Shown: positions 9,165 through 36,743 of the stretch, piece by piece
How positions within the stretch are numbered: the stretch's first letter is position 1
How the letters are laid out: every line of letters starts with the position of its first letter
Source: Fidelibacterota bacterium
Lineage (GTDB): Bacteria; Fidelibacterota; UBA8477; JABMPR01
Length of the DNA stretch: 42,595 bases
Direction of reading: 5' to 3'
NCBI GenBank assembly: GCA_021736185.1
Contig: JAIPGJ010000011.1
Coordinates: forward strand, 1 to 42,595
Notes under the pieces: generated by a model
Database searches by the model: none
What the model saw: the letters and a program-made list of their open reading frames with translations, nothing else
Told to the model about the DNA's origin: nothing
Program-made: the position numbers and the translations under genes

Positions 9165-9204
9165 ACCTTGAAAACAAATAAGTCCCTGACAATCAGAGAC
9201 TTAT
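9165..9204 (-). terminator. Rho-independent terminator of tRNA-Lys
   Basis: Read on the - strand just after the tRNA: ATAAGTCTCTGA, loop TTG, TCAGGGACTTAT, a 12 bp stem with one G-U pair, followed by TTGTTTTC. Its position 6 nt past the tRNA 3' end fits termination of the tRNA transcript. Confidence 0.75.
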
Positions 9205-9209
9205 CTATG

Positions 9210-9282
<73 letters not shown>

Positions 9283-9285
9283 ATA

Positions 9286-9303
9286 TTTCAGCTTTAGCTG
9301 AAA
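9286..9303. repeat. Perfect hairpin beside tRNA-Lys
   Basis: TTTCAGC, loop TTTA, GCTGAAA: a perfect 7 bp stem, 3 nt outside the 5' end of the tRNA. It may be a terminator fragment from an upstream unit or a short repeat; there is no T-run long enough to call it. Confidence 0.5.
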
Positions 9304-9353
9304 ATGTCGCGCCGTAGTCTTGTTACGAAGGCGGACAAGGTCAGCAAGGTAAA

Positions 9354-9437
9354 CTTTTGCGTCGAATTTCTTGTTTGTGTCGCCCTTCGGCGGGCTCAGG
9401 GTGACACAACCTGAAAGACCTCTTAATAACGCAAAAG
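9354..9437. repeat. REP-like CCCTTCG...GGGTGACA repeat inside a wider inverted repeat
   Basis: The core GTGTCGCCCTTCGGCGGGC to TCAGGGTGACAC (9377-9407) belongs to the same sequence class as copies near 13625, 20238 and 20340. Around it lie CTTTTGCGT (9354-9362) and ACGCAAAAG (9429-9437), a perfect 9 bp outer inverted repeat. Extragenic and palindromic, like REP/BIME elements. Confidence 0.6.
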
Positions 9438-9490
9438 CGCGGTGAATATAGTCGGCAAGGTAGGGCTTGTCAATGTAGCGTATGCATGGC

Positions 9491-9525
9491 AAAACAGGTT
9501 TCAGCCCGAAGGGTCAACCTGTTTT
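9491..9525. repeat. 35 nt inverted repeat, CAGGTT family (copy a)
   Basis: Arms AAAACAGGTT and AACCTGTTTT are perfect 10 bp complements around a 15 nt loop. It ends in GTTTTTTG, so it could also terminate + strand transcription. It is closely similar to the next copy when that is read on the opposite strand. Confidence 0.65.
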
Positions 9526-9556
9526 TTGAATTGTGAATTAATATTTGGGTGGGAGA

Positions 9557-9593
9557 GGAAGCAGGTTGGTCCAAAGGACTGAAACCTGCTTCC
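9557..9593. repeat. 37 nt inverted repeat, CAGGTT family (copy b)
   Basis: Arms GGAAGCAGGTT and AACCTGCTTCC pair perfectly, with an inner GTCC-AAA-GGAC hairpin. Reverse-complemented, its centre (CAGGTTTCAGTCC) matches copy a (CAGGTTTCAGCCC), so the two sit head to head 31 bp apart, just past the mmgE/prpD stop codon. Confidence 0.65.
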
Positions 9594-9607
9594 CAATTTT
9601 GTGGTTG

Positions 9608-11041
9608 CTATACTACCAGCTTCGACATGAATTGTCTGGCGCTCACCTGATCACAGTCAAAGATCAGATCCTTGACCTCTACCAAGCGCTCCGCACTCAA
9701 GACACCCGAGGCCAGACTGTTGAACTTGTTCTCCAAATCCTGCAAGGTCATGGGCTCCCGGGGATCACCCTTGGGATACTCCAGATACTCCTCGAAGCGA
9801 CGACCGTCATTGGTAGTCACCACCACCCTGGATGGCTGTTTGGCAGGAAACATGGCCTCAAACTCCAGTGAAGGTTCGCCCACAATCTTGTCAATCACTT
9901 CAAAAATCTTGGGATCCTTTAATTTCTTCTCCGAGAAAGATTGAGTCGTGATCTTCTTGTCTACAATGGCCGCTGCCATACAGTAGGGCAATGAATGATC
10001 CGCGGTTTCCCTTGACTCCGGACGATATTTGGTTGGATCAAACAGAATGTCATAGGCCTGGGCAAAAGCCGTGACTTTGACTTCTTTAATATCCGTGTAA
10101 TCCAGATCATTCTTGATCATGGCATTCAAAGCGCAAGAAATATGTGTATGAGTCAGAGCTTCCGTCGGGAAGGCCTTCATACCACACTCCAGAATCTTAT
10201 AACTCTCCCCCAGCTTCCCAACCAAGGCATCCACATCCCAAGCCCAGGAAGACACCCCGTCACGTCCTTCCATATCCGTGGGCTTCAAGGTTTCATCCTT
10301 GGCATTCCAGCCCACAAAAGCATCCATAAAGCCTTCTTTACCTTCAAAGACTTTCTCCGTCCCTGAATACCCCTTTTGGGCTAACAAGGCTGCAAAAACA
10401 CCCGCCTGTGTGGCCATGGGGTCCACGGTATTTTTCATCATGGTCAGTTTTCCTGCCGTGGGGCAGCCAATGGTGTGGTTGTGACACCCATTGATACCAA
10501 TGGCATTCACCATTTGATCGACAGTGAGACCCAGCATTTTACCCGCTACGATGGGTGATACAAACTGGGTCAGCGTGGCGTGATGCCATTTACGCTCACG
10601 GACACCCGGTTTGGCAAAAAGACACATCCGCATCTCAAATTCATAAGCCAGAACAATGGCCACAATCACATCCTTCATGGACGCGTCTACCTTCTCAGCA
10701 ACCGAGAACGCTGCCGGCATGATGTCGCTGGGATGACTTGGATCGTCCTTCCAGTAAATATCATTGAAATCCAGAGCGCGGATCATTAATGAATTCACCA
10801 GCGCCGTACTCACTGCAGGCAGTTTATCACCAAAGCCCAAAACAGTGGATTCACCAGCGCCACCCATTTCCTGGTAGATCTCCAACATGGATTTTACATC
10901 ATGGGTACCCATGCTGCCAAAAGCACAACCAATGGAATCATAAAGGTAACGTTTCACCTCATAAATGACCTCATCAGGAAGGTCTTCGTATTTCAACCCA
11001 ACGGCAAATTCTGCCATCTGTCTTGCTATTGATTTTTCCAA
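9608..11041 (-). CDS. MmgE/PrpD family protein (2-methylcitrate dehydratase / cis-aconitate decarboxylase-like)
   Basis: 477 residues of the MmgE/PrpD fold. The N-terminal helical domain has the usual 'YLYDSIGCAFGSMGTHD' segment, then 'LVNSLMIRALDFNDIYW', 'DDPSHPSDIMPAAFSVAE' with the conserved HPSD, and a C-terminal alpha/beta domain (about 270-420) including 'RPESRETADHSLPY'. Characterised relatives are 2-methylcitrate dehydratase PrpD and cis-aconitate decarboxylase; the substrate cannot be fixed from sequence. The neighbourhood (IDH, aconitase, citrate lyase on the same strand) favours a tricarboxylic acid. The start is TTG, chosen because AGGAG lies about 6 nt upstream; the next Met is residue 9. 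The gene is separated from idh by a GxxExxY element. Confidence 0.88.
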   Translation of the reverse strand: MEKSIARQMAEFAVGLKYEDLPDEVIYEVKRYLYDSIGCAFGSMGTHDVKSMLEIYQEMGGAGESTVLGFGDKLPAVSTALVNSLMIRALDFNDIYWKDDPSHPSDIMPAAFSVAEKVDASMKDVIVAIVLAYEFEMRMCLFAKPGVRERKWHHATLTQFVSPIVAGKMLGLTVDQMVNAIGINGCHNHTIGCPTAGKLTMMKNTVDPMATQAGVFAALLAQKGYSGTEKVFEGKEGFMDAFVGWNAKDETLKPTDMEGRDGVSSWAWDVDALVGKLGESYKILECGMKAFPTEALTHTHISCALNAMIKNDLDYTDIKEVKVTAFAQAYDILFDPTKYRPESRETADHSLPYCMAAAIVDKKITTQSFSEKKLKDPKIFEVIDKIVGEPSLEFEAMFPAKQPSRVVVTTNDGRRFEEYLEYPKGDPREPMTLQDLENKFNSLASGVLSAERLVEVKDLIFDCDQVSARQFMSKLVV

Positions 11042-11080: not shown

Positions 11081-11461
11081 CTAATTTTTGTTTTGAGTCG
11101 TGCTTACCAATCGTTCCGAAACTAAAGACTTCTCTCCAAAATTCATCAAAATTCCGAGTTGGAGACCAGTTACTTTCAGATAATTGATCACCTGTGCACG
11201 TTCTATATCTCCAAGTTGCTTGAGGGCTTTCAATTCAAGAATAATTTTATTCTCAACAACCAGATCACAAGAGAACTGCTTAATTTCCTGTCCTCGGTAT
11301 GTGATTGGAAATTGCTTCTGTGATTCAAAGTTAATCCCCTGAAAACCTAGCTCGACTTTTAAGGCCTCCTCATACACTGACTCCAGGAATCCCGGACCCA
11401 AAGCTTTGTGGACCTCCATGGCACAACCCACAATTTTATAAGCCAGTTCCTTATAAATCAA
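11081..11461 (-). CDS. GxxExxY family protein
   Basis: A 126-residue protein with the family hallmark GFLESVY (G-x-x-E-x-x-Y) after 'CAMEVHKALGPG', then 'CDLVVENKIILELKAL' and 'AQVINYLKVTGLQLGILMNFG'. The ELKA core resembles PD-(D/E)xK nuclease-like folds; the biochemical function of the family is not established. The track start is TTG 11461 with a poorly spaced ribosome-binding site. Extending nine bases to a CTG at 11470 puts the start 7 nt after AAGGAG and adds L-V-E before LIYKELAY, which fits my memory of family N-termini; a CTG start is unusual, so both are possible. It lies between inverted repeats, unrelated to its metabolic neighbours. Confidence 0.85.
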   Translation of the reverse strand: MIYKELAYKIVGCAMEVHKALGPGFLESVYEEALKVELGFQGINFESQKQFPITYRGQEIKQFSCDLVVENKIILELKALKQLGDIERAQVINYLKVTGLQLGILMNFGEKSLVSERLVSTTQNKN

Positions 11462-11587: not shown

Positions 11588-12784
11588 TTATAATTTGGCT
11601 ATGATGGCATCGGCCATTTGAGTCGTTGAGGCAGCGCCTTTTTCAACCACATCAGCCCGACCAGCCATTTTGGCCATATCATAGGTCCGAACCTTGCCCT
11701 CAGCCACAACCTCAGCCACCGCTTTCCGTATCCTGGTAGCAATGGATTGCTCATCGATGAAATCCAGCATCATACAGGCTGACTCAATCATGGCAATGGG
11801 ATTCACAATAGATACGGGGTAATCAGCATATTTGGGCGCACTACCATGGGTCGGCTCGAAAACGCCAATACCCGTCTCAGGATTATACTGAGCACTACAG
11901 GCGAAACCCAGGCCACCAATCAAACCGGCAAAGCCATCAGAGACAATATCGCCAAACATATTACCTGCGACAATAACGCCATAATTCTCTGGATTTTTAG
12001 TCAGCCACATCATCTGAGCGTCAATGTTGGTATTCCATAATTCGATTTCCGGGAAATCAGCCCTTTGCATCTGCTGAGCCATCTTGTACATCATGCCTGA
12101 GGTTTCACGAATCACATTTGGTTTTTCACATACAGTTACTGATTTATATCCATATTTCCGGGCGTGTTCGAAGGCAGCCCTCAGGATTCTCTCTGTGGCC
12201 TTTTTGGTGAAAATCCGTGTAGAAATAGAAATTTCTTCAACCGGTGTTCCACCAAAATTCTTAACGAATCGAGGATGGGTCATCAAGGCATCATGAACCT
12301 GTTTGGGTGGGTTACTCCATTCCACTCCGCCATAAAGACCTTCTGTATTCTGGCGGAAAATAGCCACATCCACTTCTGGCTCATCCACCCCACCGTCAGC
12401 AGCTCTTCGAATAAAATTCAAGGGGTTGCCTTTATAGGTACGACAGGGACGTAAACAAATGTCGAGATTAAAATGCTGTCGCAGACCAACAATAGGACTT
12501 GAATAAACCAGACCTTTGGCCTGTAATTCAGGAGCTAATTCATTAAAGGCATCATCTTTGGGTTTAGATGTAATGGCCCCAAACAAACCTATTTTATGCT
12601 CTGCCAGGAGGTCCAAAGTACGCTGAGGCAATGGATTACCCTCCTTGCGCCAGAATTCCCAACCAATATCACCTTCCACATAATTGGCCTCAAAACCTGC
12701 GGCTGCCAGTACACGAATGGCTTCGTCTAAAACCGGTTTTCCAATACCATCTCCCGGCATGCTTACGATTGTTCTTTTTGACAC
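11588..12784 (-). CDS. icd: Isocitrate dehydrogenase (isocitrate/isopropylmalate dehydrogenase family)
   Basis: 398 residues catalysing, most likely, oxidative decarboxylation of isocitrate to 2-oxoglutarate. Family landmarks in order: 'SMPGDGIGKPVLDEA' (nucleotide-binding N-terminus), 'RQNTEGLYGGVEW' (substrate loop), 'TRIFTKKATERILRAAFEHA', 'NMFGDIVSDGFAGLIGG' (metal and dinucleotide loop with conserved Asp), and 'FEPTHGSAPKYA'. Isopropylmalate or homoisocitrate dehydrogenases share this plan, but the neighbouring aconitase and citrate lyase favour isocitrate. I cannot decide NAD versus NADP. Start is GTG with AAAGGAGA 7 nt upstream; the next Met is residue 9. Upstream lies a palindromic repeat rather than another gene, so it may have its own promoter. 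Confidence 0.9.
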   Translation of the reverse strand: MSKRTIVSMPGDGIGKPVLDEAIRVLAAAGFEANYVEGDIGWEFWRKEGNPLPQRTLDLLAEHKIGLFGAITSKPKDDAFNELAPELQAKGLVYSSPIVGLRQHFNLDICLRPCRTYKGNPLNFIRRAADGGVDEPEVDVAIFRQNTEGLYGGVEWSNPPKQVHDALMTHPRFVKNFGGTPVEEISISTRIFTKKATERILRAAFEHARKYGYKSVTVCEKPNVIRETSGMMYKMAQQMQRADFPEIELWNTNIDAQMMWLTKNPENYGVIVAGNMFGDIVSDGFAGLIGGLGFACSAQYNPETGIGVFEPTHGSAPKYADYPVSIVNPIAMIESACMMLDFIDEQSIATRIRKAVAEVVAEGKVRTYDMAKMAGRADVVEKGAASTTQMADAIIAKL

Positions 12785-14911: not shown

Positions 14912-16882
14912 TTACAACCTTGCTTTTACCCAATTCTCCAGTCCATCAGTCAGGACCAGTTCTTGTGCTGCTGCACCCACGGGACTCAAAGCATAAGTTT
15001 TGCTATTATAGCTTAGAGTTGCGGATTTGAAGTCGATGGTTGCTTTGATGCCGGTGGCCACAGTAAGTTTTTCGCGACCATGGGTATCCAACAGATCTTT
15101 TACCAGTTCGGGAGCTTCCAAAACCAGAAAGCCGTTGTTGATAGCATTGCGTTTATAGGTTTCACTAAATGATCCTGCCAGCACCAGAGAGATGCCGCGA
15201 TACTTCAACGCTGTGGCAGCTTGTTCCCTGGAACTGCCGGTCCCAAAATTGAAGCCACCTACCAGGAAATCACCTTTTTCTACCAAATCCACAAATGCGG
15301 CATCATAGTTTTCCATGACCACGCCAGCCTGTTGCTGAGGAGTGAAATCATCGATATAGGTATATTTTCCGGGGAAAATGCCATCCGTGTTAAGATTATC
15401 CTGATGACAGAATAGAATATTCCCTGTCAATTCTCTGGGAAATCCTTCAAGGATACCCACCTCAATCGCTTCGGCTGCTGCCTTTTTATTGATTTTGATA
15501 TCACCCTGGGGTCGGGCATCATCATAAGCATAGGGTGAAACCACCTTTCCAGCTACTGCTGAGGCGGCTACTACAGCGGGAGAAGCCAGATAAGCCTTGG
15601 CGCTTTTGGCTCCCATGCGACCTTTAAAATTGCGGTTTGTGGCAGAAATCCCTACTTCGTTTTCTTCCAGTAGGCCCACACCCAATCCAATACAGGGTCC
15701 ACAACCTGGCGGCAAAGGTCTGGCACCAGCATCCACCAGCGCTTGCCAGTCTCCCCGGGTTTCACTCTCAGCCTGAACTTCGCTGGAGGCCGCAGCGATG
15801 TAAAACTCTACATGGGGGGCCACTTTTTGACCCTTAATCGTCCTGGCGGCTTCGGCTAAATCTTCTACGCGACTATTGACACAGGAGACCAGGTAGGCTT
15901 TGTGAATCTTCACCCCGGCTTTTTCCATGGTCTTGGCGGATGTCATGGTTTTTACGTTATCCGGACCAGAAACATTGGGCTCCACTGTGGCCAGATCCAA
16001 CACCAGTTCTTTGGCATAATAAGCATCCGGGTCCGCATATGGGGCGGTTTGCTTGAGTTGGGAAATTCGACCAAAATTCATGCGTGGGGAATCACCACCT
16101 TTGGCGTCAGCATCGGATTCTACGCCAGAGAGGCCTCGCTTTTCAACAGTCAGGGCTCGGGCTTCCAGCCAGTCAAAGGTCACGATATCAATAGGAAATA
16201 CACCGGCCAGGGCACCCCACTCGGTGGTCATGTTAGCAATAGTCAAACGCTGATCAATGGTCAGTGAGGCCAGGCCGTCTCCCACAAATTCAATGGCATG
16301 ATTCAAGACTTCATCATGATTAAAGAGTCCTGCAAGAGTGATAATGACGTCTTTACCGGTAACACCCGGTCTTAGTTGATTTTTCAGTTCTACTTTGGCT
16401 ACAGGGGGTACCTGCCACCAGGTCCTGCCCGTTGCCCATATGGCTGCTGCATCCGTGCGAACGATGGGGGTTCCCAGCACGCCGAGTCCGCCATACATGT
16501 TGGAGTGACTGTCTGATGCCACAACCATGCTGCCAGGCCAGGCATAGCCCTCCTCACACATGATCTGATGACCGATACCGCGACCGGCAGGATAGAAATC
16601 CACGCCCATTGCTTTGGCGAAGGCTTCAATGCCGGCATACTTCTTAAGGTTGGCTTCACTGGTATCCTGAACATTATGATCCAGAGCGTAAACCGGTTGT
16701 CTGGGATTGGCCACTTTGGTGGCACCAATCGCCTTGAACTTATTCATCACGGCACCCGTATTGTCATGGGTCATGACATGAGCTGGCGATATGGATAAAA
16801 AGTCACCACTCCTCACTCTATGTCCCTGTTCCAGATCAACGGCATATTTCTGGGCAATCTTTTCAATCAAATTTTGTGACAT
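14912..16882 (-). CDS. acn: Aconitate hydratase, Aquifex-type
   Basis: Interconverts citrate, cis-aconitate and isocitrate through a [4Fe-4S] cluster. The three cluster cysteines are in 'YLVSCVNSRVEDL' and 'PPGCGPCIGLG'. Other landmarks are 'LDHNVQDTS', 'GIGHQIMCEEG', 'SDSHSNMYGGLG', 'ATNRNFKGRMG', and in the swivelling C-terminal domain 'NFGTGSSREQAA'. At 656 residues it has the length of the Aquifex-type family and is shorter than classic AcnA (about 890). The track start (TTG 16903) is not used: ATG 16882 (MSQNLIEK) has AAAGGG 8 nt upstream. It is the first gene after an inverted-repeat element and is followed 1 bp later by the CDF gene. Confidence 0.94.
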   Translation of the reverse strand: MSQNLIEKIAQKYAVDLEQGHRVRSGDFLSISPAHVMTHDNTGAVMNKFKAIGATKVANPRQPVYALDHNVQDTSEANLKKYAGIEAFAKAMGVDFYPAGRGIGHQIMCEEGYAWPGSMVVASDSHSNMYGGLGVLGTPIVRTDAAAIWATGRTWWQVPPVAKVELKNQLRPGVTGKDVIITLAGLFNHDEVLNHAIEFVGDGLASLTIDQRLTIANMTTEWGALAGVFPIDIVTFDWLEARALTVEKRGLSGVESDADAKGGDSPRMNFGRISQLKQTAPYADPDAYYAKELVLDLATVEPNVSGPDNVKTMTSAKTMEKAGVKIHKAYLVSCVNSRVEDLAEAARTIKGQKVAPHVEFYIAAASSEVQAESETRGDWQALVDAGARPLPPGCGPCIGLGVGLLEENEVGISATNRNFKGRMGAKSAKAYLASPAVVAASAVAGKVVSPYAYDDARPQGDIKINKKAAAEAIEVGILEGFPRELTGNILFCHQDNLNTDGIFPGKYTYIDDFTPQQQAGVVMENYDAAFVDLVEKGDFLVGGFNFGTGSSREQAATALKYRGISLVLAGSFSETYKRNAINNGFLVLEAPELVKDLLDTHGREKLTVATGIKATIDFKSATLSYNSKTYALSPVGAAAQELVLTDGLENWVKARL

Positions 16883-16901
16883 ATTAGACCCTTTAAACTG
16901 C

Positions 16902-17127
16902 AACCGCGAATTTCGCGAATTTAATTATTTCCATCCAATTTTACAGAATAGGCGAGTATCATTGTTGATAAGACTCTGTACGGGCGCATCGCGATGCGCC
17001 ACAACAAATGATCGTTGCCAGCTTTTCTGTATTGTTTTTAATATATTCAATCATTGCTTTCTTTTTTAATTGAGACTAGCCCACAAATCAAAAAAACAAA
17101 TTCGTGAAATTCGCGCAATTCGCGGTT
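16902..17127. mobile_element. 226 bp gene-less element with GxxExxY-type inverted termini
   Basis: The left end is AACCGCGAATTTCGCGAATT; the reverse complement of the right end is AACCGCGAATTGCGCGAATT, so 19 of 20 bases agree. These are the termini that flank the GxxExxY gene at 11058-11555. Inside there is no credible ORF, only AT-rich sequence and a copy of the 38 nt GGGCG palindrome. It fills the whole gap between acn and sppA, ending 10 bp from the sppA stop. MITE-like by appearance; mobility is inference. Confidence 0.6.
16977..17014. repeat. 38 nt repeat with GGGCG...CGCC palindrome (copy b)
   Basis: Contains GGGCGCATCGCGATGCGCC, a near-perfect palindrome, and the same trailing ATGATCG as copy a at 12831-12868. 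Lies inside the 226 bp element. Confidence 0.75.
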
Positions 17128-19666: not shown

Positions 19667-20200
19667 TTATGCTTTGAAGGGTTCAAAGGAAACAAAGTCG
19701 GCATGGTGGACGATTATTGATTCAACAGTTCTTATTCCCAAATCTCCCTCTTTGGAGTGGGTAGCGATAATATGCTGAACCTCGGCCGGCAATTCAAACT
19801 GAAAAGCAATGGCTGCACCGCTGAAGGGATGACGCACAATTTTTCCCATGGAGCTGGTACCCAGTTTGCCGTCTTGCATCTCATATTCAAGGAGCTTGCC
19901 AATATCAATCAGAATGGCTCCTGAAATCAAAATGTCCATATCGATTTTCATGGCATCACCAAAATTTTCCTGCATGCGTTTGGCAATATCCACGGCCAAC
20001 TGGACACAGGTTCTTTTGTGATTCATGAATGAAACATTGACATCTTTAATTAACAGACTAAAGGGTATCACCTCAAGATCTTCGGGAGAGAGGACACTAT
20101 TTTCAATGGCCCAAACCCAGGCATTCAAGGTTTTCTCACGCAATTCCTTATCTTTGATCCATTTGATCTCAGGCCAGATTTTTAGTACTTTATCTTTCAC
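19667..20200 (-). CDS. HD-domain protein with degenerate metal site
   Basis: About 177 residues of an HDIG-type phosphohydrolase fold: 'MNHKRTCVQLAVDIAKRM' (first His), 'SGAILIDIGKLLEY', 'HPFSGAAIAFQF', 'IIATHSKEG' and 'IIVHHADFVSFE'. The signature His-Asp appears as Ile-Asp (LIDIGK, codons ATT GAT), so one metal-binding His is missing while other His/Asp residues remain. Activity may be changed or lost. I prefer the GTG at 20200 because AAGGAG lies 9 nt upstream; the track ATG (20218) adds six residues and would sit on top of that ribosome-binding site. It lies 85 bp upstream of sppA and is separated from citF by a REP pair. Substrate unknown. Confidence 0.75.
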   Translation of the reverse strand: MKDKVLKIWPEIKWIKDKELREKTLNAWVWAIENSVLSPEDLEVIPFSLLIKDVNVSFMNHKRTCVQLAVDIAKRMQENFGDAMKIDMDILISGAILIDIGKLLEYEMQDGKLGTSSMGKIVRHPFSGAAIAFQFELPAEVQHIIATHSKEGDLGIRTVESIIVHHADFVSFEPFKA

Positions 20201-20237
20201 TATTAGAATCTCCTTCATTCTTTCTATAATCTTTTTC

Positions 20238-22093: not shown

Positions 22094-23311
22094 CTACTCC
22101 GCAGTCGCTTCTTTCCAATTCTCTGCGACCAAACCTGTTTCTATCGCCATTCGAATGGTGCGTTGGGCGCGCTTGACCACTGGAGGATCTATCATCTTAG
22201 AGCCAACAGCAACGACGCCCAGTCCCCTGGATTCAGCCTCATCCGCAGCCATAATGATTGTTTGTGCTCTTGATATCTCAGCCGCTGATGGAGCAAACTC
22301 CTCATGAATGGGTCTAATTTGTCTGGGGTGAATACAACCCATTCCATCAAAACCCATGGATTTAGTCACACGAACGGATTCCCTCAGGGCTTCCTCGTTA
22401 CTCACATCGCTAAACACCGTATCGATGGGTTGAATTCCGGCAGCTCTGGCGGCGTTCACCAGCATGGATCGAGCAAAGAAGGACTCCTTGCCCTCCAGGG
22501 TTCGTTGGGTTCCAATATCAGCCGTGTAATCTTCCAGGCCCATGGCCAGGCCGACATTGTTTTTGCTCGCCATGGCTATGGCGTGGGCATTTAACACACC
22601 CAGAGCACTCTCCAGGATCGGCATATAGTAAACTTTTTTATCCAGACCCTTTTCATGAAGGATAGATTGAACCTTGGCCTCCATGGCAATGACCTGGCCA
22701 GCAGTCTCTGCTTTGGGTAAAAGAATGGTATGAACGTTATGGGGAATAATGGCTTCCAGATCCTCCATACCCAATTCGCCCTGATTAATCCTGACCATAC
22801 GCTCAGCGCCGAAGAAATCCAGTGTACGCAGAGCATTTCTTACGATATAGCGCGCAGCATCTTTTTCTCCAGGGGGTACTGAATCCTCAAGATCCAGAAT
22901 GATACAGTCTGGTTTGTGTATTCCGGCATTTAAAAAAAGTTTGGGTTGATTGCCCGGCAAATACAGCCGACTGCGTCGAAATCGTCCAAATGAAGTTCCA
23001 TATTGAGCATGGGTTTTGAACTCGGGCAGCACTTCAATAGCAATTTCTGGATGAGCTCGCTTGACCACCGTTTCTATTTGAGCCATCATGACAAAAGGGA
23101 GGGCACCAAAATCCTTGATTTCAAAGGAGCCTGATTCGATCCCTAAACTGGCCAGCGTTTTTTCCACCAAATCCCGGATGGCATTTGAAAACAGCGCATC
23201 GACTTTGCTTTCAATCTCAATTTTAAGTGGTTCTGAACCGGGTTTATAAAATACCTGGCAATCAGATTTAATGATTGTCCCCAGGGGGCCTGATTGAAAC
23301 ATCTTACTCAT
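22094..23311 (-). CDS. citE: Fused citrate lyase acyl-carrier (CitD) and beta (CitE) subunits
   Basis: 405 residues with two domains. Residues 1 to about 95 align by eye with CitD, the gamma acyl carrier protein: 'GPLGTIIKSDCQVFY' keeps the Ser (Ser16 here, Ser14 in Klebsiella) that carries the triphosphoribosyl-dephospho-CoA group, followed by 'VDALFSNAIRDLVEKTLASL' and 'DFGALPFVMMAQIETVVKRA'. Residues about 112-405 are CitE of the HpcH/HpaI aldolase fold: 'RRSRLYLPGNQPKLF', 'CIILDLEDSVPPGEKDAAR', 'MVRINQ', 'ILLPKAET', 'YMPILESALGVLNA', 'AMGLEDYTADIGTQRT', 'MGCIHPRQI'. The domain cleaves citryl-ACP to oxaloacetate and acetyl-ACP. CitD and CitE are usually separate proteins. Neither citC nor citX/citG, needed to charge the Ser, lies in this window. 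Confidence 0.9.
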   Translation of the reverse strand: MSKMFQSGPLGTIIKSDCQVFYKPGSEPLKIEIESKVDALFSNAIRDLVEKTLASLGIESGSFEIKDFGALPFVMMAQIETVVKRAHPEIAIEVLPEFKTHAQYGTSFGRFRRSRLYLPGNQPKLFLNAGIHKPDCIILDLEDSVPPGEKDAARYIVRNALRTLDFFGAERMVRINQGELGMEDLEAIIPHNVHTILLPKAETAGQVIAMEAKVQSILHEKGLDKKVYYMPILESALGVLNAHAIAMASKNNVGLAMGLEDYTADIGTQRTLEGKESFFARSMLVNAARAAGIQPIDTVFSDVSNEEALRESVRVTKSMGFDGMGCIHPRQIRPIHEEFAPSAAEISRAQTIIMAADEAESRGLGVVAVGSKMIDPPVVKRAQRTIRMAIETGLVAENWKEATAE

Positions 23312-34790: not shown

Positions 34791-36341
34791 CTATAGCGGG
34801 ATATTTCCGTGTTTTTTTTGTGGGTTTGAATCAACTTTATTTTCCAGCATTGCAAAAGCTCTGATGACTTTCATGCGGGTTTGTTTGGGTTCGATGACCT
34901 CGTCCACATAACCCCTTTCAGCCGCAGAATATGGATTTGCAAATCTTACAGCAAATTCATTGGTAAGACGTTCCAGGGCTTCCTCGGGGTCATCAGCCCG
35001 GGCAATTTCTTTTCTGAAAATAATTTCAGTCGCTCCTTTAGCGCCCATAACTGCGATTTCGGCACAGGGCCAGGCAAAATTGATATCCCCGCGAATATGC
35101 TTGGAGTTCATCACATCATACGCTCCGCCATAGGCTTTGCGAGTAATCACTGTGACTCTGGGTACGGTTGCTTCGGCAAAGGCGTATAATAATTTCGCGC
35201 CATGACGAATAATACCTCCCCATTCCTGGACCGTTCCAGGCAAAAACCCCGGGACATCCTCAAAAGTGAGCAGGGGAATATTAAAGGCGTCACAAAATCT
35301 AACAAAGCGAGCCCCTTTGACTGCTGAATCAATATCCAGAACGCCTGCAAGCACGGCCGGTTGATTGGCCACAACCCCGACAGATTTCCCATTCAAACGC
35401 ACAAAGCCGACGACCATATTCATGGCAAAATCTTGATGAACTTCATAGAACTCACCATGATCAACCACGCTTTGAATAACGTCCTTCATGTCATAGGGTT
35501 TGTTGGGGTTTTCGGGAACGATGGTATCCAAAATGATATCAACTCGATCAATGGGATCGGTGCACTCAATGTGAGGTGGATCTTCAAGATTATTTTGAGG
35601 AATAAAGCTTAATAGGCGTTTAATACCCTCAATGACTTCAATTTCATTTTCGCAGGTGAAGTGGCTGACTCCAGACTTGGATCCATGTGCTGTGGCCCCT
35701 CCCAGGTCTTCTTTACTGACTTCTTCATGAGTGACCGTTTTGACCACCTCCGGGCCAGTTACGAACATGTAGCTCGTGCCCTTGGTCATAAAGATGAAAT
35801 CTGTGATGGCTGGTGAATAGACGGCACCCCCGGCACAGGGACCCAGGATCGCTGATATCTGGGGAACCACGCCGCTCATCAGGGTGTTTCTCAGGAATAT
35901 ATCAGCATATCCTGCCAGACTGACCACACCTTCCTGGATGCGAGCTCCGCCGCTGTCATTCAAACCAATCACCGGCGCACCAACCTTGGCGGCTAAATCC
36001 ATGACTTTGACTATTTTTTCGGCGTAAGCCTCAGAGAGGGAGCCACCCATGACGGTGAAATCCTGGCTAAAGACGAAGACGGTGCGACCATTGATCGTTC
36101 CGTGGCCAGTGACCACTCCATCCCCTAAAAATTTTTGTTTTTCAAGACCAAAATTGGTGGAACGATGGGTTACCAGCATGCCCATTTCTTCAAATGAGCC
36201 TGGATCCAGGAGCAGATCAAGTCTTTCCCGGGCAGATAATTTTTGTTTGGCGTGCTGGGCATCCAGACGGTCCTGCCCGCCACCCAACAGGGCTTCTGCT
36301 TTCAGCTTGTTGAGTTGCGCCAGACGATCTCGGCGGTTCAT
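34791..36341 (-). CDS. pccB: Propionyl-CoA carboxylase carboxyltransferase (beta) subunit
   Basis: 516 residues of the biotin-dependent carboxyltransferase family. It moves CO2 from carboxybiotin to an acyl-CoA, or reverses this in decarboxylases. Landmarks are '[16 protein letters not shown]', '[21 protein letters not shown]', '[14 protein letters not shown]', '[16 protein letters not shown]', '[17 protein letters not shown]', '[15 protein letters not shown]', and '[17 protein letters not shown]'. The Asp in GGAYD is, from memory, the residue associated with propionyl rather than acetyl specificity. The B12-binding subunit of methylmalonyl-CoA mutase lies immediately upstream (adjacent stop/start), fitting a propionyl-CoA/methylmalonyl-CoA pathway. 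No biotin carboxylase or biotin carrier is in the window. Confidence 0.93.
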
Positions 36342-36743
36342 TTAACGATTTTCCTGAACCCAGTTGGTGATGTAGCTATTGATTTCCGTGAGACTGGCGC
36401 CGGGACCAAACAGGCGCCCCACCCCCAGTTTATTCAGTTCGATCATGTCTGCTTCGGGAATGATTCCGCCACCGGTAAGGAGTACATCATTCAGACCTTC
36501 TTCCTTCATAAGCTCCAGAACTCTGGGAAAAATGGTCATGTGGGCACCGGACAGAATGCTTAGAGCGACAATATCAGCGTCCTCCTGGAGGGCCGCCGCG
36601 ACAATCATTTCAGGGGTCTGTCTTAAACCCAGATAAATGACTTCCATTCCGGCGTCTCTAAATGAATTCGCCAGGACTTTTGCCCCGCGATCGTGGCCAT
36701 CCAAACCAGGTTTTGCCAGAATGACTCTAATTTTCCGTTCCAT
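36342..36743 (-). CDS. Methylmalonyl-CoA mutase B12-binding subunit (small, stand-alone)
   Basis: 133 residues, a single cobalamin-binding domain equal to the C-terminus of methylmalonyl-CoA mutase. The B12 motif D-x-H-x-x-G is Asp15-Gly-His17-Asp-Arg-Gly20, with His17 as the lower cobalt ligand; 'ALSILSGAH' and '[13 protein letters not shown]' complete the base-off nucleotide loop and strand. As a separate small subunit it needs the large catalytic subunit (TIM barrel), which is not in this window. Together they would convert methylmalonyl-CoA and succinyl-CoA. It is the first gene of a seven-gene operon and its stop codon directly abuts the pccB start. Confidence 0.93.

Follow-up and report, generated by a model that had tools for sequence, protein, structure and literature searches.

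The analysed stretch of DNA (the window, 42,595 nucleotides from a Fidelibacterota bacterium) encodes, in one protein of 405 residues, a CitD-type domain followed by a complete CitE-type domain, as a first-pass annotation made from the letters alone had proposed. In this protein the true attachment site of the prosthetic group is, by alignment, gone. The reading that we consider probable is a citrate-lyase-type enzyme that would have abandoned the covalent arm and would use free acetyl-CoA and citryl-CoA (or a citramalyl analogue), the carrier domain being retained as a docking part.

Table 1. Positions of the fused protein, its domains and the neighbouring genes in the window
Feature	Position	Strand	Basis
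CitDE fusion protein, 405 aa	22094..23311	-	ORF; PF06857 and PF03328; AlphaFold2 model
CitD-type pseudo-carrier domain, about residues 1-95	23027..23311	-	PF06857, identity to CitD
Loop Lys15-Ser16-Asp17	23261..23269	-	Alignments with canonical CitD and MdcC (PDB 5vit)
CitE-type lyase domain, residues 112-396	22124..22978	-	PF03328, TIGR01588, invariant residues, fold
CitF, alpha subunit (acyl/CoA transferase), 523 aa	20390..21961	-	PF04223, TIGR01584
HD-domain protein, following citF in many loci	19667..20218	-	TIGR00277 HDIG 6.5e-8; synteny
Aconitase/homoaconitase-type hydratase	14912..16903	-	TIGR00139 834 bits; synteny
Isocitrate/homoisocitrate dehydrogenase family enzyme	11588..12784	-	PF00180; synteny
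MmgE/PrpD-family enzyme	9608..11041	-	PF03972 and PF19305; synteny

The fused gene is a single frame with an ATG start (Table 1). Its carrier half was matched by PF06857 of Pfam over residues 10-86 (E 9.4e-17, 61.5 bits for a cut-off of 25.1), which is the CitD match expected within residues 1-95, and this domain is 31-37% identical to the CitDs of Peptoclostridium, Gluconobacter and Enterococcus. The match to the TIGR01608 citD model (E 6e-15) lies below the curated cut-off, as does that to PRK13253 below its own. The lyase half was matched by PF03328 (Pfam) over residues 113-329 (E 3e-52) and by the TIGR01588 citE model (E 2e-86), on which its 290 bits stay below the equivalog cut-off of 443. 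Because of these domain matches and of the citF gene that comes next, 132 bp downstream, the CitD-CitE fusion is real, far beyond chance, and no chance ORF. The 1:1 ratio of gamma and beta chains that had been proposed follows from the fusion. No promoter or terminator signal over the shuffled background was detected by scanning.

The AlphaFold2 model of CitDE was a confident single unit (pLDDT 93, pTM 0.90), the Lys15 loop being among its less certain parts (pLDDT 84). The linker, which the first-pass annotation had singled out for modelling, was predicted to be ordered and not floppy (pLDDT about 95 over residues 81-110). In this model, the ordered linker speaks against a freely swinging carrier domain, a single-chain prediction being no proof of it. 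A fold search with the model returned malyl-CoA lyases and CLYBL as best matches, a result that confirms the lyase fold only, and the fold and structure searches gave no close solved relative of the CitD domain other than MdcC.

Ser16 of the IIKSDCQV stretch had been taken as the prosthetic-group serine, an assignment that proved to be off by one residue, as the attachment position is occupied by Lys15. In a multiple alignment of eight canonical CitDs the motif AGT[LI]E-S-[SG]-D is invariant, and the attachment serine of known carriers lies two residues before the conserved aspartate, where the window protein has Lys15. The alignment with the Peptoclostridium carrier runs over 89 columns without gaps and also places Lys15 at the attachment serine, and Ser16 is aligned with Gly15 of E. 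coli CitD, the neighbouring and unmodified position; Asp17 is kept. In Klebsiella CitD, Ser14 is the prosthetic-group site. MdcC, which belongs to the same carrier family PF06857 and in which, as in the window protein, the attachment-serine loop precedes a long strand, aligns its Ser25 to the canonical CitD serine (weak score, E 0.04, with an identical motif), and Ser25 is the experimentally known attachment site in malonate decarboxylase (PMC5534430). MdcC thus keeps the serine in a GSGD loop, whereas the window protein has KSD.

The same replacement was observed throughout the family. The attachment column was compared in 139 distinct fused proteins and holds an arginine or a lysine in 126 and a serine in one, and the conserved aspartate is present in every fused member with a readable loop. 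The column of Ser16 has alanine or glycine in 10 members and keeps its serine in about 93% of the same set; since the tree indicates about five separate losses of this residue, Ser16 is not required either. The one fused member with a serine at the attachment column (L076, ISSD loop) comes from a genome, G517, in which CitG is missing. A genome of the same genus as the window (G283) carries, beside a normal CitDE, a second and diverged copy (L124) that is 57% identical to the window protein and has a QSD loop. L096 was rejected as a fused member devoid of the loop, which is present in another frame.

The window assembly (2.74 Mb, 161 contigs, 89% complete) has its nearest relatives in Candidatus Neomarinimicrobiota. 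A scan of the genome collection yielded 58 loci from other genomes, belonging to Neomarinimicrobiota, Eisenbacteria, Bacteroidota, Ignavibacteriales, Cloacimonadota, Zixibacteria and Stahlbacteria, and the fusion was present in all 58. The PF06857 matches found in 297 Bacteroidota genomes all lie in frames of 377-455 aa and are therefore fused (28 out of 28), and in the phylum of the window the fusion was found in 90 of 245 genomes, including 45 of the 94 of high quality. The fused proteins share 48-88% identity across great phylogenetic distance and, in the lyase-domain tree, cluster together and separately from canonical CitE (support 99); all 39 members scanned retain the carrier domain. 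Neither an assay nor a structure of a fused member was found, and a literature search, which was not exhaustive, returned no described CitD-CitE fusion lacking the attachment serine.

In canonical systems, CitG and CitX make and attach the prosthetic group and CitC acetylates it (PMC10798043). The absence of citC, citX and citG from the window, already noted in the first-pass annotation, was confirmed and extends to whole genomes. In 51 fusion-bearing genomes (that of the window and 50 others), profile searches detected neither CitX nor CitG, and CitG was also missing from 72 genomes of another set that shares some members with the first (28 Bacteroidota and 44 Neomarinimicrobiota at least 90% complete). 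For CitC, 48 genomes gave no match exceeding the TIGR00124 cut-off; the weak matches, about 160-180 aa long, span at most a third of the model and resemble other nucleotidyltransferases. A PF08218 match at G000:C103 was discarded as a CitC candidate, for it covers 63 of 182 model positions only and TIGR00124 finds none in G000. E. coli, used as control, was positive in every one of the CitX, CitG and CitC searches, and at each of the canonical loci (L060-L065 and L067) citDEF adjoins citC and citX and/or citG. A loss of the accessory genes to assembly gaps was rejected, as CitG is missing even from single-contig genomes and from the 44 with a completeness of at least 90%.

The joint loss of CitG, CitX and CitC is what a loss of the covalent arm predicts, in view of their roles in building, attaching and acetylating the group, and it is very probable that the prosthetic group is absent from the fused family. 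The attachment that had been left unexplained for want of accessory genes in the window now reads as most likely not done, and for this reason a channelling of citryl-ACP to the lyase site, which the fusion had been thought to allow, finds no support, the attachment serine being lost and CitG and CitX missing. It could be argued that the arm is still carried by Ser16, or elsewhere, via an unrelated attachment system, the enzyme being then an ordinary swinging-arm citrate lyase. The serine that is kept one residue before the aspartate in most members and the carrier domain kept in all 39 members scanned are compatible with it, and an unrelated attachment system would escape the profile searches on which the absence of CitX, CitG and CitC is based. 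We nevertheless regard this possibility as improbable, because Ser16 was lost about five separate times from proteins that are otherwise intact and because no CitG family protein, to which the donor synthesis belongs, was found in any genome tested, nor any CitX in the genomes tested. The loading of Ser16 by a 4'-phosphopantetheinyl transferase was also considered and set aside as the leading explanation, given the repeated loss of this residue and a domain that is no ordinary ACP.

The lyase domain itself is preserved. The CitE core residues, of catalytic type, are invariant in 39 of 39 aligned diverse members and match those of canonical CitE. The CitF of the window was recognised by PF04223 (E 8e-134) and by TIGR01584 (491 bits, just under the cut-off of 501), and, where a locus extends far enough, CitF follows CitDE with few exceptions. 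The CitF of this family is changed in step: an N-terminal stretch, NAAGRxVP, is conserved, and the GGHxD of canonical CitF is exchanged for GGWQN. The intact lyase core and the adjacent CitF argue for a working enzyme. The first-pass annotation had also envisaged a genome without any route to the prosthetic group and an inactive protein: the first part is in agreement with CitX, CitG and CitC not being found genome-wide, whereas the second is at odds with an enzyme that looks to be under selection. The lost attachment site and the missing accessory genes could suggest a relic, inactive or decaying, a reading that is very unlikely in view of the core residues invariant across 39 members, of the identity of 48-88% maintained over great phylogenetic distance, of the preserved synteny with citF and of the occurrence of the fusion in the phylum, where 45 of the 94 high-quality genomes have it.

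Compared with citrate lyase CitDEF (EC 4.1.3.6), the window likewise has the CitF alpha, CitE beta and CitD gamma components adjacent and in the order D-E-F, but gamma and beta are fused, lysine or arginine stands in place of the attachment serine, no CitX, CitG or CitC is present in the genome, and the CitF of the family has its own N-terminal stretch and GGWQN instead of GGHxD. A CitF-type gene, a CitE-type core and a CitD-type domain were thus found as in the holoenzyme, whereas the serine bearing 2'-(5''-phosphoribosyl)-3'-dephospho-CoA, the CitG and CitX pair, and CitC were not. The fused enzyme is not filed as an ordinary citrate lyase, because it fails on these three tested features; in its parts, and probably in its net chemistry, it resembles one. 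The citramalate lyase of Peptoclostridium (L061), from the methylaspartate fermentation of glutamate, shares the architecture; the alignment with its carrier is free of gaps, and its lyase ranks with the canonical ones nearest to that of the window, but in this locus CitD is separate, the ESSD motif is intact and citX and citC lie alongside. The CitE-like lyases that use free CoA (human CLYBL, malyl-CoA lyase, Mtb CitE and RipC) have the same lyase fold as the window protein; enzymes of the CLYBL and malyl-CoA lyase type stand alone, without CitD domain or CitF, whereas the window has both. By identity, the window lyase is closer to canonical CitE (38-43%) than to CLYBL (about 31%).

In the free-CoA mechanism that we favour, CitF would convert acetyl-CoA and citrate (or a similar acid) into citryl-CoA (or a related 2-hydroxyacyl-CoA) and acetate, and the CitE domain would then cleave the 2-hydroxyacyl-CoA into oxaloacetate (or pyruvate) and acetyl-CoA, free acetyl-CoA acting as the recycled carrier. 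The CitD domain would be a fixed docking or structural part, in which the Lys/Arg-x-Asp loop may, as a guess, touch the phosphates of CoA without a covalent bond. There is good precedent for catalytic parts of such enzymes accepting free CoA thioesters. When isolated, subunits of the classical citrate lyase reportedly work on CoA esters (Dimroth and Eggerer, in 1975). The MdcD-MdcE pair of malonate decarboxylase decarboxylates free malonyl-CoA (PMC5534430), and characterised stand-alone CitE-like enzymes act on free CoA thioesters (PMC3832036). Against this mechanism stand the carrier domain, kept in all members and superfluous unless structural, the conservation of Ser16 in about 93% of them together with the serine of L076 at the attachment column, and the canonical members of the CitF family, which act on a carrier-bound thioester.

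If true, this would be a natural case in which a covalently bound cofactor was traded for a free one, and the trade would have let three accessory genes be lost. In genome surveys, a "citrate lyase" gene is taken as proof that a carrier-based enzyme is at work, and if the fused family is devoid of the covalent arm, these assignments call for another enzyme model. One study argues for CO2 fixation in a Marinimicrobia clade from a citrate lyase that may or may not be the fused one (PMC5688066). A broader proposal, which we put forward tentatively and judge slightly less than evenly probable, is that Neomarinimicrobiota, Bacteroidota, Ignavibacteria, Cloacimonadota and candidate phyla such as Eisenbacteria share a citrate lyase free of prosthetic group, in which a cationic residue, taken up in place of the attachment serine, would hold free CoA non-covalently. 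The swinging-arm complex would thereby have become a system that cleaves citrate with soluble CoA, tied to an aconitase and an isocitrate-type dehydrogenase, and perhaps serving an ATP-independent cleavage of citrate.

The neighbouring genes bear on the substrate. In many loci CitDE is followed, in this order, by CitF, the HD-domain protein, an aconitase/homoaconitase, an (iso)citrate-type dehydrogenase and MmgE/PrpD; this order is conserved from Neomarinimicrobiota to Ignavibacteriales (L013, L016, L018-L021 and L036) and, apart from inserted genes, is kept in the window between 9608 and 21961. The HD-domain protein, without Pfam match, usually comes right after citF and is 73-94% identical across Neomarinimicrobiota, and a role in the CitDE-CitF pathway is likely. 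The hydratase exceeds the cut-off of 530 bits of the homoaconitase model (Table 1). The dehydrogenase has SPIVGLR in its substrate loop, and its best NCBIfam matches are homoisocitrate dehydrogenases, far below cut-off; no other PF00180 gene was found in the window genome. For the MmgE/PrpD-family enzyme, the nearest solved structures are cis-aconitate decarboxylases. This context points to tricarboxylate metabolism, with citrate, citramalate or a homologue as candidate substrate.

The carrier could also be vestigial and citrate not the main substrate of the pair, which would act instead, within the cluster, on citramalate, homocitrate or a methylcitrate, for example, an alternative that we hold to be possible although rather unlikely, and that is compatible with the free-CoA mechanism, from which it differs in substrate alone. 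On the citE model the window lyase, at 290 bits, scores like that of Peptoclostridium, found beside methylaspartate genes (303 bits), well below the cut-off, whereas the E. coli and Enterococcus enzymes reach 452 and 470 bits. The homoaconitase-like character of the cluster hydratase agrees with another substrate, as does the presence elsewhere in the window genome of a second aconitase, of AcnA size (contig C81), and of a citrate synthase, the latter being found in 37 of 48 fusion genomes. On the other hand, DASS/citrate-type transporters adjoin the fusion in L031, L048 and L051, and the dehydrogenase, as the sole PF00180 gene found, fits an isocitrate role. No methylaspartate genes were recognised in the window.

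In L031, the DASS/citrate-type transporter gene (9180-10616) lies between CitDE and CitF. In the window, a PDDEXK_3 protein of GxxExxY type (11081-11461) is inserted between the PrpD-like and dehydrogenase genes. Further along, an MmdA/PccB-type carboxyltransferase (34791-36743) is located beside a methylmalonyl-CoA mutase B12-domain gene, and a carboxyltransferase of the same type is found upstream of CitDE in the Bacteroidota loci L041, L045, L047, L049 and L052.
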